Below, piece by piece: positions 547-11,099 of a stretch of DNA of 64,000 bases. The stretch's first letter is position 1; the number at the start of each line of letters is the position of its first letter. The stretch lies in contig JALLLT010000001.1 in the NCBI GenBank assembly GCA_025266875.1, positions 992,001 to 1,056,000 on the forward strand, given 5' to 3'. This DNA comes from Fennellomyces sp. T-0311 (Eukaryota; Mucoromycota; Mucoromycetes; Mucorales; Lichtheimiaceae). Under the pieces are notes generated by a model. It worked only from the letters and a program-made list of their open reading frames with translations. It was not told the origin of the DNA and did no database searches. The translations under genes and the position numbers were made by a program.

Positions 547-3210
547 ATGCCACTCTTTTCACAGCCGCTGGACCACCGGCAGTGGCTCCAATCGAAGAAT
601 AACCTTCTTATATACTCTTCTCTTGCCGCAGCAACCGTTGCCCTGGCATACCGACGCTCGCGCCATTCGTCATCGAAGGGATTGTCTGCCGATCTACTCA
701 ACAGCACCAAGCGAGCGCTTTTCAAAGAAACGGAGCCAGAGACATTCAAGCAGCATAAGCCATTGTTCCCTGTAGTCGATGTCGTGAAAAAAGTCGGTGT
801 CAATGACGAGTTCATTCGACAGCTGCGTGCCATTGCAAAGATTATCTTTCCTCATTACCACACCAAAGAGGTGTTCCTGCTTATTCTGCATTCGGTGTTC
901 CTTGTTCTGCGCACGTATCTCAGCGTGGTTGTCGCAAGGATTGATGGTCGTATTGTCAGAGACCTGGTATGTGAATATCCGCGTGTCCTGCGTTTTCCAG
1001 CTCATGCCAGTTCGCCTTAGGTCAGTGGCCGTGGTAAACGCTTCCTCACAGGTTTGGGATATTGGTTTGCAATCGCCATTCCAGCAACGTACACGAACAG
1101 CATGGTATGTGTGGCAATAGATGAGGGTTAGCGACCATGTGTCTAAACCGACTGCTCTTCCTCCAGATTCGCTATCTGCAGTCCAAGCTTGCAATCGGCT
1201 TCCGCACACGGCTGACGCGCTACGTCCACGATCTCTACCTAGACGACGAGAAAACGTTCTACAAATCCATCAACCTGGACGGAAGAATACAGGGTGCCGA
1301 CCAGTAAGCATTCGGCATGAATCATGCAGTGCGGGAATGGGTTACAATTAACTGGGTCTGTTTATGCCGACAGGTTCATTACGACCGATATTACCAAGTT
1401 TTGCGACACTCTGGCCTCGCTGTACTCCAACCTGGCCAAGCCTTTGCTGGACACGGTGATCTTCAACTACCAGCTGCTGCAGTCCATCGGCTTCATGGGC
1501 ATGGTTGGCCTCACAGTCAACTATATGGTAACTGCCAGATTGTTGCGTGCCGTGACTCCGTCGTTTGGCAAGCTGGCCGCCATCGAAGCCAAACTCGAGG
1601 GTGATTTCCGAGCCGCGCATACCAGACTAATCACGAATGCAGAGGAAATTGCGTTCTATAACGGTGGCGAGCTGGAACACTCGATCCTCAACCGCGCCTA
1701 CCAGCGCCTGGTCAAGCACATCAATTCCATTTACAAAATCCGTATCAGCTACAACATGTTTGAAGACTTTTTGATCAAGTACTCCTGGAGTGCGTTTGGT
1801 CTCATCCTCTGCGCCATCCCTGTGTTTGCTCCCGATATGGTAGGCAGCATGGCCAACAAGGTTACCAAGAACATGGACGAGGACGCCCAGGTGGGATCAC
1901 GCACGCGTGGTTTCATTACAAACAAGCGGTAAGGCCGATTTTGCTCCTTCTGTGGCGCACCGTTTCTAATCGAAGATAATAATCTAGATTGATGATGTCA
2001 TTGGCCGATGCAGGTGGTCGCATGATGTACTCGTACAAGGAACTGGCCGAACTGGCTGGATACACAACCCGTGTCTACAGTCTGCTCTCCGTTCTTCATT
2101 CCTTGAAGGCTGGCGAATACGATGGCCCGAACGAAGCTGTCCGATTCGCCTTGACCAATATCCGGGGCAAGATTCATCTTGGCGAGGATGGTATCAAGTT
2201 TGAAAACGTACCCATCGTAACGCCCGCCCCAGGTCAAGATCGTCAGGGTGAAATGTTGGTGGAGAACTTGAACGTTCATGTTCGTGCTGGTGAGCACATG
2301 CTTATCACCGGTCCAAATGGTGTGGGCAAAACAGCAGTTGCACGTGTTATCGCCACCTTATGGCCAACATTCGGTAAGCTAAGGCCTTCTTCTTTTGTTC
2401 GAAAACATGATCCTCACGAATCTGGGTTCTTAGAGGGCACATTGTCACGACCTGAGGACAAGAACATTTTCTATATTCCACAGAGACCCTATTTGAGCTT
2501 GGGTACCCTTAGAGACCAGTTAGTGCAATGCAAAGCTTTGATCTGTGGACCTTGCTGACCGATTTTATTCTACCCATCAGAGTTATCTACCCTCACACTC
2601 ACGAAGACATGAAGAAAGCTGGTCGAACGGATGATGAGCTTATGAAGATCTTGGATGTTGTGCGTTTGGCATACATTCCTGACCGTGAAGGTGGTTGGGA
2701 AACCAAAAAGGAGTGGAAGGATGTGTTCTCCGGTGGAGAGAAGCAAAGAGTAAGTAACTGGATGGAGGCAACGACGTTACAGTTATTAACCAAGTAATAT
2801 TATGGATAGATTGGTATGGCACGTTTGTTCTACCACCATCCCAAGTACGCTGTTCTGGACGAATGTACCAGCGCAGTTTCTGCCGACGTTGAAGGCCTTA
2901 TGTATGCGCATGCAAAAGATATGGGTATTAGTAAGTGCCAAAAGTTCATGGATCTCTGCGTGGCACGAGCTTACATCTTTCTATAGCACTCATGACGATT
3001 TCTCACCGACCGGCACTGTTCAAGTATCACCAATACCTCCTAAGACTTACTGGAAACCATGGCCAATGGGAGTTGGAACAGATCGGCACGAAGCAACAAC
3101 AGCAGTCCTTAGAAAAAGAAATGCAAACACTCGAGACCAAGTTGCAAACTGTAGAGGCCCTGAAATCACGACTTGGTGAAATTGACGCCGAGCTCAGTTT
3201 GAAGCTGTAA
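547..3210 (+). CDS. Peroxisomal ABC half-transporter, ABCD (ALDP/PXA) family
   Basis: Nine exons fit (547-966, 1021-1104, 1167-1303, 1374-1928, 1988-2373, 2434-2518, 2581-2749, 2810-2930, 2987-3210), giving about 726 residues, normal for a half-transporter. The N-terminal half is the membrane domain and contains the ABCD-type EAA-like motif [14 protein letters not shown]. The C-terminal nucleotide-binding domain has Walker [10 protein letters not shown] (about residue 507), the signature FSGGEKQR (about 605), Walker [11 protein letters not shown] and the switch histidine in TISHR. Family members dimerise in the peroxisomal membrane and import very-long-chain acyl-CoAs for beta-oxidation. Walker A ends in GKT where GKS is common, and the signature starts with F rather than L; both are tolerated. 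The start at 547 is preferred because the extra residues from 424 look unlike family N-termini. Whether it is the PXA1 or PXA2 partner cannot be decided here. Confidence 0.93.
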
Positions 3211-5174: not shown

Positions 5175-6400
5175 ATGTCCACAGATAAGATCACCTGCTT
5201 GTTGAACTGGTATGTTTTTTTTGTCAATGCAAATCCCTCAATATTGTGAAAACTTACGCGTTTTTATCAAGGCATGCGACTCCCTACCATCTTCCCTTGT
5301 TCCTTGCAGAGAAGCTCAACTACTTTGCGGAGGAAGGTATCAAGATAGCCATCTTGGAGCCCAACAACCCCTCTGATGTTACCGAAATCATCGGGTCTGG
5401 CAAGGTTGATCTTGGTTGCAAGGTATACTTTTATTTTTCTCCATTTAAATTTTTTCCCATAATATTTTCTTATTGATAATCGTTAGGCCATGATTCATAC
5501 CATTGCTGGCAAGGCACGCGGTTTCCCCATCAAGTCCATTGGTACTCTTTTGGACGAACCTTTCACTGGTGTTGTGTACCTCCGCTCCAAGAGTGGCATC
5601 ACCACCGATTTCGAAAGCTTGCGTGGCAAGCGTATCGGCTATGTTGGTGAATTTGGCAAGATCCAGTTGGATGAGTTGACGCGCCAATATGGCATGACAC
5701 CCGAGGATTACACTGCCGTACGCGTCGGCATGAACGTCACTGGTGCCATTATTCGTGGTGAAATCGATGCGGGTATCGGTCTTGAAAACGTTCAGATGGT
5801 TGAATTGGAAGAATGGTCCGTTCAGCAAGGTCGCCCAGCGGATGACGTTGCTATGCTTCGAATTGATGAGCTTGCTCATCTCGGATGCTGCTGCTTCTGT
5901 TCAGTAAGTTACACACGCGGCCTTTTTTTTATTTTAGAACAAAAAACGACTCACCTGTGTTACTATAGATTCTGTTCATTGGTAACGAAGCATTCATCAA
6001 CAATAACCCTGAGAAGGTGAAGGCGTTTATGAAGGCTATCAAGCGTGCTTCCGAAGTCATGTTTGAGGATCCCGTCAAGGCTTATGAGCTGTTTGTCGAA
6101 ATGAAGCCTCATATGAACAGCATTGTCAACCGCAAGATTTTCCAGCGTTCCTTCCGCTACTTTTCCCGCGATTACAAGAATGTCCAGCGCGACTGGGATA
6201 AGGTTACCAACTACTGCAAGCGTTTGGAGATCATTGATCAATCCTTTGAACAAAACATGACCAACTCGTTCTTGTCGTGGCCTTTGTTGCCCGAATCTAC
6301 CCCTGGTGTTGAACCTCCTACTGTGGATACCGGTGTCGTAAGCTGCGGTTGCCGTAACCTTCAAGGTCCAGTTCCCGACCTTGTTTCCGCCAAGGTTTAA
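5175..6400 (+). CDS. THI5: HMP-P synthase, thiamine pyrimidine biosynthesis (THI5/NMT1 type)
   Basis: Four exons (5175-5209, 5272-5422, 5487-5903, 5969-6400) encode 344 residues, close to the 340 of yeast Thi5. The enzyme makes 4-amino-5-hydroxymethyl-2-methylpyrimidine phosphate, the pyrimidine half of thiamine, from PLP and a histidine in its own active site, so it is single-turnover. Lys62, which binds PLP, and His66, the sacrificial histidine, fall at exactly these numbers in the conceptual protein (GCKAMIH). The iron-binding CCCFC motif is at residues 196-200, within one residue of yeast. The gene is followed 13 nt after its stop by a GTAAGT splice donor and then by a TPP aptamer, which points to feedback control by thiamine pyrophosphate at the level of mRNA 3'-end structure. 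Confidence 0.97.
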
Positions 6401-6413
6401 TTTTTTCGCATAC

Positions 6414-6567
6414 GTAAGTTCTTTCACTATTTTAAAGTAGCGTTCTATGCATATCGCACGGATTTGCATACATGCATGTCTCACTCTACATTGTTACTAA
6501 CCGACTGCATGCACATCCCTTCCAAATCAAATTCTTGGTTTGGTTGGGAATTTGTTTATTTCATTTA
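6414..6567 (+). promoter_or_regulatory. Putative 3'-UTR intron of THI5
   Basis: A perfect donor GTAAGT starts 13 nt after the THI5 stop codon. A perfect branch-point motif TACTAAC lies at 6495-6501 and an acceptor (TTTCATTTAG) ends at 6567, only 2 nt before helix P1 of the TPP aptamer. A second possible acceptor, GTGTGCAG, ends at 6695, just past the aptamer. Choice between the two, or retention, would decide whether the aptamer stays in the mature mRNA. The splice signals are read directly; their use is inferred. Confidence 0.6.
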
Positions 6568-6569
6568 GT

Positions 6570-6677
6570 GGTCGAACCTAGGGGTGCTCGTGTTTGCGTT
6601 TCAAGCAAGCCAATGGGCTGAGATCATTACCCTCAGAACCTGATCAGGATAATACCTGCGAAGGGAAGGTGTCGACC
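6570..6677 (+). promoter_or_regulatory. TPP riboswitch (THI-box) aptamer in the THI5 3' region
   Basis: All conserved parts of the TPP aptamer are present in order. P1 is GGTCGAACCT (6570-6579) paired with AGGTGTCGACC (6667-6677), ten base pairs with one bulged G. The P2 5' strand is GGGGT (6581-6585), paired with ACCC (6629-6632). A variable P3 arm (GTTTGC at 6591-6597, GCAAGC at 6604-6609) follows, then the pyrimidine-binding CTGAGA (6618-6623). J2-4 is CAGAACCTGAT, and P4/P5 with L5 is CAGGATAATACCTG, followed by GAAGGGAA, the pyrophosphate sensor half. An AATAAA polyadenylation signal sits at 6699-6704, 22 nt beyond P1. Known fungal examples sit mainly in 5' introns, while plant THIC carries it in the 3' UTR. 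It could alternatively serve an undetected downstream gene. Confidence 0.95.
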
Positions 6678-8903
6678 GCATTAGTTAGTGTGCAGATTAA
6701 TAAAAAAAAATTTAAAAAAGAGCTTTGTTGCTTTGCATAACTCTGCTTCGTCATATCACTTGCAAAGGTGGGAAGTGATCACGCTTATATTGGGTCATCT
6801 ATGGCTGCAAATCAGCGAATTTGCCTTGTATTTCAGTGTTCACTCATTCAAATTACATATGTACTAGTTCACATTATTCTCATTCTTAATTGGTCAATGA
6901 TAGCCAGGGCATACTTTCGTTGATTCGATTTATTCATATATTTGGAAACACGGAAAGGAATCTTTGGTCGTGTACCACATTTGTCCTACAAGACAACACT
7001 CAAACAATGATGTGCATAAGGCTTGTTGGAACAGTTGATATTAATATGAATGTGAGATTAACTATATCTTATGTTACAGCTTTTCAATGAGTAAACTGTC
7101 AGTATTGTACCTGGGGCAGATAGTAATGATAGTACGTAGGTTACAAAGAAATAGTACAAATAGAAATATTTGCCCGCAGCGGTTCCTCCACCATTATTTT
7201 CGTAGACAGATCGAATACTACATAAAAAGAATCCAAAAACAAAAGAAGAAAAAAAAGTGGAGGAAGAAAAAGCGCATGATCACTGTTATTAATAAAAAGC
7301 GAGGTGTATGTTTAAATGTGGGATGTGATATGTAGAACTCGCAGATTTTGTTGCTCACAAGGATGAGAGAAAGCTTGAGCGCCTTATCCCCTGGCACTGG
7401 CCACCATGTTGGGCGTCGCCATGGCTTATAAATGGATGACAGAGAATCGCTCCGCCCCTTGAAGCTTTTCTCACGAGAATTACGCGACTCATTGACCACT
7501 GCCTTGCACAGGTCGATACATTGTATAACTCGTACTTTAAACGCAAAAAGACAGGCACCATGTACCCAAGGTCGCTCAGTCAATGAGTGCCTTTTGATAG
7601 TGATATGTGTAGAAACCGGTTTGGCAACGTACATTTCATTTTTTTCCCGGTCGCAACATGATGAAACACCGCATGTTCCTGTAAAGATATTATATTACTT
7701 GAGCTTTCAGCAAACCTTACCACATATTCCCAAGCACAGAAAGGTTAAGTCGATCCCACCGATAGCTTGTTAAGACCGTGGCGGACTTTTTGCTATTGAA
7801 AGTATCTAACGAACTCCACAACACTCAAATTGTGTATGTACCCACTGTTATCCGCTATCATCCGGGAATCTACTTTAAAGTATGTGCGCTGTTTTGGATT
7901 CTGCACTCTGTCACCGTTGCCATTATAGCGTGGCTGGATTATATAGCCTTTATACGGATGGTGTCTTTCGTGTTGACGCCAGAGATCCTTCTAATCCTAT
8001 GCATGCGAGCTTATCAAATAAATGTAATGTCAGCATCTTCGAATAATGGTTCAAAAAAGAAGGGCTACACCTTGATGATTTGTCCGTATTCCATCATTTT
8101 CGCAACATTATTCATAAGGTTATCCTTGGCGAGAAAAAGATTCAAGCTATGATACCTTCATAAGTATATGGAAACGGTCCTTTATCACCGTTAACTTCTT
8201 ACCAGCGTACATCCCAACATTGACTGCAGAGCGTGCTTGGGTGCTGAATTCAATCATCTAGTCCAGCCAAATGTGCTCCTTCGTACGTTTGCTGTTTACT
8301 ACTTTTTGCTGTCTAATAAGATCGAAAAAAACCAATTAATACTGAAATACGCCTCTTCAGTGCACTTACACCTAATGATTCCGTCGTGTCTCTTGTAGAG
8401 CGTTATAGCCAAGAGGAAGAATTTTGATTGAATTTGTGAAGTTTTACTCGAGGTGGGCTCACCTAATACCTTCATTTGGCTGTTGCTGTTACATACAGTT
8501 CACCAGATCCCACCTCAAAATCAAGTTTGTTTTAGTGGTACGCAAAGTAAGCAATGATGAGCAACGCTTTTCATCGGTGTGCTCTGTATACTAGTCCGCT
8601 TATTCGCAGTGCAGTGAGCTACTGTTCGTATTTCCGTGCACTGCCACATCGTTCAGAATTCCGTTTGTTACATTAACTACTTTTACTGAAGATTTGATAT
8701 GCAGTATTAGTAGTCTTTTGACTATTTTTGAGTTACTATCGCGTGCAACCAGCATACCTTAACCTGTTGGTCATCATAGCGTTTTTGAATAAAAAAAGCG
8801 TGCAGTACTATTTCTTGTGAAACTCATAATGTATAAGTCTGTGCTGATATTAGGGAATAAATGGTCCGTACGAGGATCCCTAGAAGCAAGTGCACCCAAC
8901 GTA

Positions 8904-9911: not shown

Positions 9912-11099
9912 ATGGTGCATACCCCACACGTGGAACTTGAACCCTGCTTCCAGGAAGTAGTAAAAAAGGAGGCACCTCCTGACTTTAAACGAACGCCAGA
10001 GACACAGCGTGCTGGGTACACTACAGAATCACTTGATCCGCAATGGATAAAACGCCTACCGCCCGTCCTCGAGGAACGATTGACCATTCCAAATCGAAAT
10101 GGCAATGGGACGATCGACTTGACCATTAATAGACCCTTGGGCACGGAAAACGAGATCTTGCCCGTCATTGTGTATATGTAAGCTGGAATAGATAAGACTT
10201 TTTGCAAAGTTATGCAAACGCCACTCTCGGTTCCCTAGACACGGTGGCGGGTGGGTTGTAGGTGATGAATCGACACACCGACGCCCTCGGACACAAGTGA
10301 GCTGCTGCAGGTACGATCGATAAAGGCTAATGCGCTCTATAGCTAGCTGTGGATACACATGCTGCGGTGGTTTTTGTGCATTATAGTCGTAGTCCAGAAC
10401 ATAGGTATACTTGCCGCACATAAGTGTGTTAAGGCGTCTCACAGTAACCGCAGGGATTGTGCTTTTTTAGATACCCAGTTGCACTAGAGGAATGCTACGA
10501 CACAGTTGTCTGGGTAGCCAGCAACGCTGTATCTATCCGGGTAGATCCAGCCAAACTCGTTATTGCTGGGGATTCAGCAGGGGGAAACTTGACTATTGCA
10601 GTTACCTGTGAGTCATATGCGTTGTCCCTTTATAGTATACTGAAGCAGAATCTTAGTACTTGCCAAGCAACGTGGACTTTCTGCCATCCGTGCCCAAGTT
10701 CTATTCTACCCCGTGACAGACTCCAACTTTAATACGGACTCATACAACGCATTCGCTACCGGTTATGATTTAACGCGGGAACTTATGATATGGTTTTGGG
10801 ACCATTATGTACCCGAGGAGAAGGATCGCCAACAAATCACAGTATCGCCACTAAAAGCTTGCTTGGAGGATTTGCAGGGCTTACCCCCTGCACTCGTCAT
10901 CTCGTGTGAAGCCGACGTGCTTCGCGACGAAGCGGAGGCATATGCGCGCAAACTGTTGGCGGCCGGTGTTCAAGTGTCAGCGGTGCGCATCTTGGGCACG
11001 ATCCACGGGTTCTTGGATATGCCGTTCTACGATAGTCATGCTGCAAGATTAGGCATGGATCAGGCAATCGCCGCAATTCGTAAAGTTTGGGACAAGTGA
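9912..11099 (+). CDS. Alpha/beta-hydrolase, hormone-sensitive-lipase-type esterase
   Basis: Five exons (9912-10177, 10239-10296, 10343-10404, 10471-10607, 10657-11099) give 321 residues, typical of the family. The oxyanion-hole motif HGGGWVVGD spans the start of exon 2. The short third exon supplies the strand before VHYSRSPEHRYP, the nucleophile elbow is GDSAGG, the acidic residue is probably the Asp in SCEADVLRDEA, and the catalytic His is in GTIHGF. Members hydrolyse short-chain acyl esters, some being carboxylesterases or lipases; the natural substrate is unknown. No signal peptide is seen, so it is probably cytosolic. The first two exons alone would read as a broken gene; exon 3 (62 nt) is needed to complete the fold, and its junctions (caa/cta and ag/a) keep frame. 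Confidence 0.92.

Follow-up and report, generated by a model that had tools for sequence, protein, structure and literature searches.

The THI5 locus and its downstream TPP aptamer

The 64-kb window, which is the whole stretch of DNA analysed here, carries a THI5/NMT1 gene that was modelled with four coding exons and a product of 344 aa (Table 1). Fennellomyces is placed in the Mucorales, family Lichtheimiaceae, by the NCBI taxonomy, and the named ones among the five best protein matches to the THI5 product (4 of 5) all come from Mucoromycota. These five matches, at 84–89% identity, and a Pfam NMT1 match (E 4.8e-33, obtained from one exon) substantiate the THI5 identity given to the gene by a first-pass annotation of this DNA; a genome search found it as a single copy. 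Intron 1 (window 5210–5271), as placed by protein homology, apparently ends in an unusual acceptor, TCAAG. Upstream of THI5, parts of an ABC transporter gene were identified at about window positions 1324–2555 (PF06472, ABC_membrane_2; PF00005, ABC_tran).

A covariance search with Rfam identified a TPP riboswitch aptamer (RF00059) on the same strand as THI5, with an E-value of 3.6e-10 and a bit score above the gathering cut-off of 54.3 bits. The match spans model positions 1–105 of 105, that is, the full length, and is the sole Rfam family at the gathering threshold within the window. CTGAGA, CAGGATAATACCTG and GAAGGGAA were all found in the aptamer, and its P1 stem folds with ten pairs, which become twelve when G6568 and T6569 are added. 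Only 1 of 200 shuffles folded as well as the region itself. The complete THI-box aptamer, the conserved elements and the ten-pair P1 described in the first-pass annotation are thus all present. The stop codon of THI5 ends at 6400 and the aptamer begins at 6570, so the gap between them is 169 nt, the distance that had been claimed; the AATAAA reported 22 nt after the aptamer was located at 6699, 21 nt past 6677, as the nearest such signal. From its position, the aptamer probably lies inside the THI5 3' UTR, where it would bind TPP.

Table 1. Features of the THI5 locus (window coordinates)
Feature	Position	Strand	Basis
THI5/NMT1 gene	5175..6400; exons 5175-5209, 5272-5422, 5487-5903, 5969-6400; stop 6398-6400	+	Gene model, Pfam NMT1, protein identity
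Candidate 5' splice site GTAAGT, 13 nt past stop	6414..6419	+	Sole GTA[ACT]GT within 300 nt of stop
TACTAAC, candidate branch site; hairpin and AG-free run of 65 nt behind it	6495..6501	+	Motif, fold
Candidate acceptor TTTAG at foot of P1, intron 155 nt	6567..6568	+	G6568 is outermost P1 base in fold
TPP riboswitch aptamer, RF00059	6570..6683	+	63.7 bits; fold z -3.34
AG in stem P2, second candidate acceptor, intron 168 nt	6580..6581	+	Plant/green-algal analogy
Third candidate acceptor TGCAG, past aptamer, intron 282 nt	6694..6695	+	Sequence
AATAAA, candidate polyadenylation signal	6699..6704	+	Sole AATAAA in 6300-7000

Three TPP aptamers, all 3' of genes

When the 45.6-Mb genome was scanned with the covariance model and the best candidates were scored, three TPP matches were obtained at E-values up to 0.001; a motif scan allowing one mismatch returned the same three aptamers, and its reversed control returned none. 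The second aptamer scores 62.3 bits, above the cut-off, and lies 64 nt past the stop codon of a THI4 gene (Pfam Thi4, E 8.4e-108; product of 303 aa). The third, at 45.9 bits (E 8.1e-7), falls below the cut-off and starts 32 nt past the stop codon of a gene for a sugar-type MFS transporter (PF00083, E 1.5e-77), whose product matches a Fennellomyces sp. T-0311 protein with 100% identity over 488 aa. Coordinates for THI4 and the transporter are given on the sense strand of their locus sequences, L002 and L003, respectively. A cytochrome c gene (PF00034; locus sequence L005, 1946–2197) is convergent to the aptamer-bearing transporter gene.

Each of the three aptamers is located downstream of a stop codon and on the strand of its gene, and none of the three is found upstream of or between coding exons. 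Because every TPP aptamer that the genome scans found, three in all, lies 3' of its gene, the case made in the first-pass annotation for the THI5 locus is strengthened. By these criteria of sequence and fold, we regard as confirmed that the element is a true TPP aptamer and that the three loci detected in the genome share its 3' placement.

The three copies share the ligand-binding motifs CUGAGA and GCG together with stems P1, P2, P4 and P5. All 12 of the P2/P4/P5 pairs that were checked form in all three copies, four of them having changed on both sides between copies, and for each copy 1 of 200 shuffles folded as well (z -3.34, -2.56 and -3.50). Intact binding motifs in every copy, pairs kept through two-sided changes and folds of this quality argue against the proposal that the aptamers are remnants, or that they bind TPP without regulating these genes. 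We hold that proposal to be unlikely; the transporter copy, lying under the Rfam cut-off, would suit it, as would the predicted 3'-UTR TPP aptamers of diatoms that gave no thiamine response (PMC9544697).

The first-pass annotation had itself raised the alternative that the aptamer is the leader of a separate transcript starting between 6400 and 6570. The aptamer does lie outside the THI5 coding sequence, and a start in that interval would be compatible with the sequence, but it would then be hard to account for an aptamer occurring behind each of THI5, THI4 and the transporter gene. Nor did the same-strand open reading frames listed downstream have a Pfam match, whether those after THI5 (2 of 2; ATG-initiated, at least 80 aa, before 9900) or those after THI4 and the transporter (7 of 7 each; read from stop to stop with a minimum of 70 aa, over roughly 3–4 kb, two of the seven at THI4 and one of the seven at the transporter overlapping the aptamer or the gene end). 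On the THI5 strand, the first Pfam domain detected past the gene is part of an alpha/beta hydrolase at 10785. We consider a separate transcript highly improbable.

Candidate 5' splice sites at the stop codons

Exactly one GTA[ACT]GT occurs within 300 nt of the stop codon in each of THI5, THI4 and the transporter gene. Measured from the first base of the stop codon, these candidate donors are positioned at +16 in THI5, +14 in THI4 (1448 in L002 numbering) and -19 in the transporter gene; the first two follow the stop by 13 nt and 11 nt, and the third precedes it by 19 nt. Of the aptamer genes, 3 of 3 therefore have a consensus donor no more than 25 nt from the stop, compared with 0 of 22 genes for mitochondrial carriers in this genome. 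The carrier control comprised 22 of the 23 genes in the loci, one having been left out for an incomplete last match, and for a few of the 22 the gene end is uncertain, the reading frame running on for up to 53 codons. Fisher's test puts the difference at about 1 in 2300, a figure whose true weight is lower because the donors were seen before the interval was chosen. For comparison, GTA[ACT]GT is contained in 4.3% of 50-nt windows, and a donor was found at 0 of 34 stops of long open reading frames in the window, some of which are not real genes. We infer from this placement that the donors at the stop codons may be used for splicing.

The same contrast between aptamer genes and carrier genes stands against a riboswitch that operates without splicing, in which an aptamer stabilised by TPP beside AATAAA would help or hinder cleavage and polyadenylation, or alter the stability or export of the mRNA, the donors being incidental. 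An AATAAA is indeed close to P1 in all three genes, 20 nt after it in THI5, 29 nt after it in THI4 and 18 nt before it in the transporter gene, and intron-less 3'-UTR TPP aptamers are reported from algae (PMC4260697). The eukaryotic mechanisms described in the excerpted text of PMC5882874 and PMC10226581, on the other hand, all work through splicing, and we judge a mechanism without splicing to be rather unlikely.

Relative to the would-be introns, the polyadenylation signals fall into two arrangements. There is no canonical AATAAA between the donor and the aptamer in THI5 or THI4. In the transporter gene, the AATAAA (1470) is located at the stop codon, and both the stop codon and this signal lie between the donor and the AG of stem P2; the next AATAAA follows at 1916.

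Candidate acceptors and branch sites

The eight homology-supported introns of THI5, THI4 and the transporter gene are 54–78 nt long; these homology-placed introns alone were used for the length range, the 17 candidates of an automatic search having been left out as too noisy. The distance from the donor to the P2 AG is 65 nt in THI4 and 66 nt in the transporter gene, both inside this range, and 168 nt in THI5, which is outside it. Because the AG belongs to the aptamer consensus, its presence is uninformative and only the distance carries information. The context of the P2 AG in the transporter gene is TCAAG, as at the end of THI5 intron 1. If the transporter transcript were spliced from the donor to the P2 AG, the predicted product would end in ...LEEMEGACSFV before a stop.

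In THI5, the candidate branch site TACTAAC is followed by a hairpin, whose fold (z -2.91) was equalled by 3 of 200 shuffles, and by an AG-free run whose length is matched at 2.8% of window positions. The distance from TACTAAC to the acceptor is 68 nt, which exceeds the distances in the homology-supported introns. A branch motif 10–25 nt ahead of the P2 AG is present in THI5 only among the three genes. The TGCAG acceptor beyond the THI5 aptamer has a weak pyrimidine tract (10 of 20 positions) and is without a branch motif 10–25 nt before it, and a further candidate acceptor of THI4, a TAG at 1638, has pyrimidines at 17 of 20 positions and is situated directly ahead of AATAAA. In the 240 homologous proteins listed, we also looked through the first and last 120 residues for peptides such as RIIPA, which would betray a gene model extending across the aptamer, and found none.

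Splicing of THI5 to 6568 would bring the aptamer to about 14 nt past the stop; the distance is 32 nt in the transporter gene and 64 nt in THI4. Such proximity would suit an action of TPP on how the final codons are translated or how translation terminates, with the ribosome or mRNA surveillance being affected by a rigid aptamer so near the stop. We deem this very unlikely: the distance in unspliced THI5 is 169 nt, and no such mechanism was found in the literature searched, which was available in part.

Pairing between the donors and the aptamers

In the model described for plants and Neurospora, the donor pairs with the P4/P5 region of the aptamer. This pairing received no support here, as fractions of 0.36, 0.60 and 0.37 of genomic stretches were as good for the three genes. 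In THI4, positions +5 to +17 of the would-be intron pair instead with the 5' strand of P1 over 13 bp, with an energy of -14.9 kcal/mol, and only 0.3% of background windows and 2 of 2000 shuffles were as good. This 13-bp helix uses the 5' strand of P1, and P1 is therefore excluded while it exists; in THI4, the switch would be this helix of the donor region, formed in place of P1.

When the THI4 aptamer was forced to form in the folding model, the predicted probability that the donor is unpaired rose from 0.37 to 0.55 in two shorter stretches and from 0.16 to 0.28 in two longer ones. The aptamer fold of THI4 costs 7–10 kcal/mol in the model, with a probability of 0 for unforced P1 without ligand; this cost would have to be covered by ligand binding or by co-transcriptional folding. 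Forcing the aptamer in THI5 or the transporter gene shifted the modelled access to the donor by at most 0.07.

As a general rule the donor/P1 pairing was rejected, since it is supported in THI4 only, the fraction of background that was as good being 0.70 and 0.61 for THI5 and 0.29 and 0.33 for the transporter gene. We also considered a pairing of the 3' strand of the THI5 P1 with coding sequence in the last exon, at 6340–6363 (-18.9 kcal/mol; 0.12% of background windows as good); it may be due to chance and was not relied on, because it is the best of many positions.

A proposed model for control from the 3' end

Taken together, we slightly favour a TPP-dependent processing of the RNA 3' end at THI5, as one of three such genes, most likely by way of an intron whose donor is at the stop codon. 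Control through 3'-end processing is plausible as such; the element that switches and the direction in which it does so are what we infer. The donor would be joined to an acceptor that lies within the aptamer or next to it, and binding of TPP would re-pair P1 and P2, thereby altering the use of the stop-proximal intron and giving the mRNA a different 3' end. At high TPP the poorly expressed form of the mRNA would result, which would amount to end-product feedback.

The riboswitch in the 3' UTR of plant THIC was reportedly described by Wachter and by Bocobza in 2007. In plants, a 5' splice site of the 3' UTR is covered by the aptamer when TPP is low, and a processing site in the retained intron yields an mRNA that is short and well expressed. 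When TPP is high, this donor becomes accessible, the intron is spliced out together with the processing site, and a longer mRNA results that decays (PMC10226581). An acceptor AG in P2 is described for plants and green algae (PMC9544697).

As far as the excerpted sources allow a comparison, the likeness to plant THIC that had been proposed in the first-pass annotation holds in part. The aptamer follows the gene that supplies the thiamine pyrimidine (THI5), an AG is present in P2, and a candidate donor lies between the stop and the aptamer (THI5 and THI4) or just before the stop (transporter). A polyadenylation signal within the would-be intron, which would fit the plant logic closely, is shared by the transporter gene only; THI5 and THI4 suit that logic less, because their AATAAA is beyond the aptamer. 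The system described here further differs from plant THIC in that it belongs to a fungus, in the genes concerned (THI5, THI4 and a transporter), in a P4/P5-donor pairing that is not above background, and in the donor/P1 pairing of THI4. Convergence with plants, as the first-pass annotation had put it, is not shown, given that 3'-UTR TPP aptamers are also reported from prasinophytes and stramenopiles, including at THI5-like genes (PMC4260697), and from diatoms (PMC9544697). Scans of viral contigs with a THI5 exon and with THI4, and of genome contigs with THI5, returned no relative in which the 3' position could be compared. Two of the THI5-like genes with 3'-UTR aptamers are intron-free (PMC4260697), and the 3'-UTR aptamer of diatom THIC did not respond to thiamine (PMC9544697). 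The loci described here resemble the algal and diatom cases in the 3'-UTR placement, at some THI5-like genes among others, and differ from them, in the excerpted accounts, by the consensus donors at the stop codons.

The TPP riboswitch has been noted across all basal fungi (PMC4133162), and the fungal examples have been sorted into types I–IV, which are located in 5' UTRs or in introns between exons; the sole 3'-UTR case in that 2018 survey, as excerpted, is eIF5B in Postia (PMC5882874). The present aptamers share with these types the aptamer class, NMT1 and THI4 as targets and the proximity of splice sites, and are unlike them in following the stop codon, with 0 of 3 in a 5' UTR or between coding exons. 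A sugar-transporter group, TPPsw-SUGAR, found mainly in Mucoromycota, was placed consistently in the 5' UTR in a 2024 survey (PMC11683625). Likened by gene type, our third aptamer resembles this group as a TPP aptamer at a sugar-type MFS transporter of the Mucoromycota, and conflicts with it in lying 32 nt past the stop. In the literature searched, which was available in part and beyond which an earlier case may be in print, we came across no earlier description of TPP riboswitches placed 3' of fungal thiamine genes.

More tentatively, and as a possibility that we would rate well below an even chance, the three loci may represent a fungal lineage with TPP riboswitches at the 3' ends of genes, in which an intron at the stop codon is governed by competition for P1, as seen in THI4, rather than by P4/P5, the intron of the transporter gene removes the stop codon and the polyadenylation signal together, and the published 5'-UTR placement of the Mucoromycota transporter group is in part mis-assigned.

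If confirmed, the arrangement would mean that thiamine genes are controlled from the 3' end in fungi as well as in plants, and would offer three natural versions of one device, at three types of gene in one species, with which the wiring of a single aptamer class to splicing and polyadenylation becomes testable. The 5'-UTR assignments in surveys of the Mucoromycota, whose TPP riboswitches have been proposed as antifungal targets (PMC11683625), would also need to be rechecked.

A minor observation concerns the C-terminus of the transporter. Among its 39 listed homologues (P0121–P0159), 13 carry E-Y-V or E-Y-I ahead of F-G-A at the end of the protein. With the codons GAG TAY GT, E-Y-V would spell a GTAYGT donor, and the C-terminus of the transporter may thus be under constraint from the RNA.
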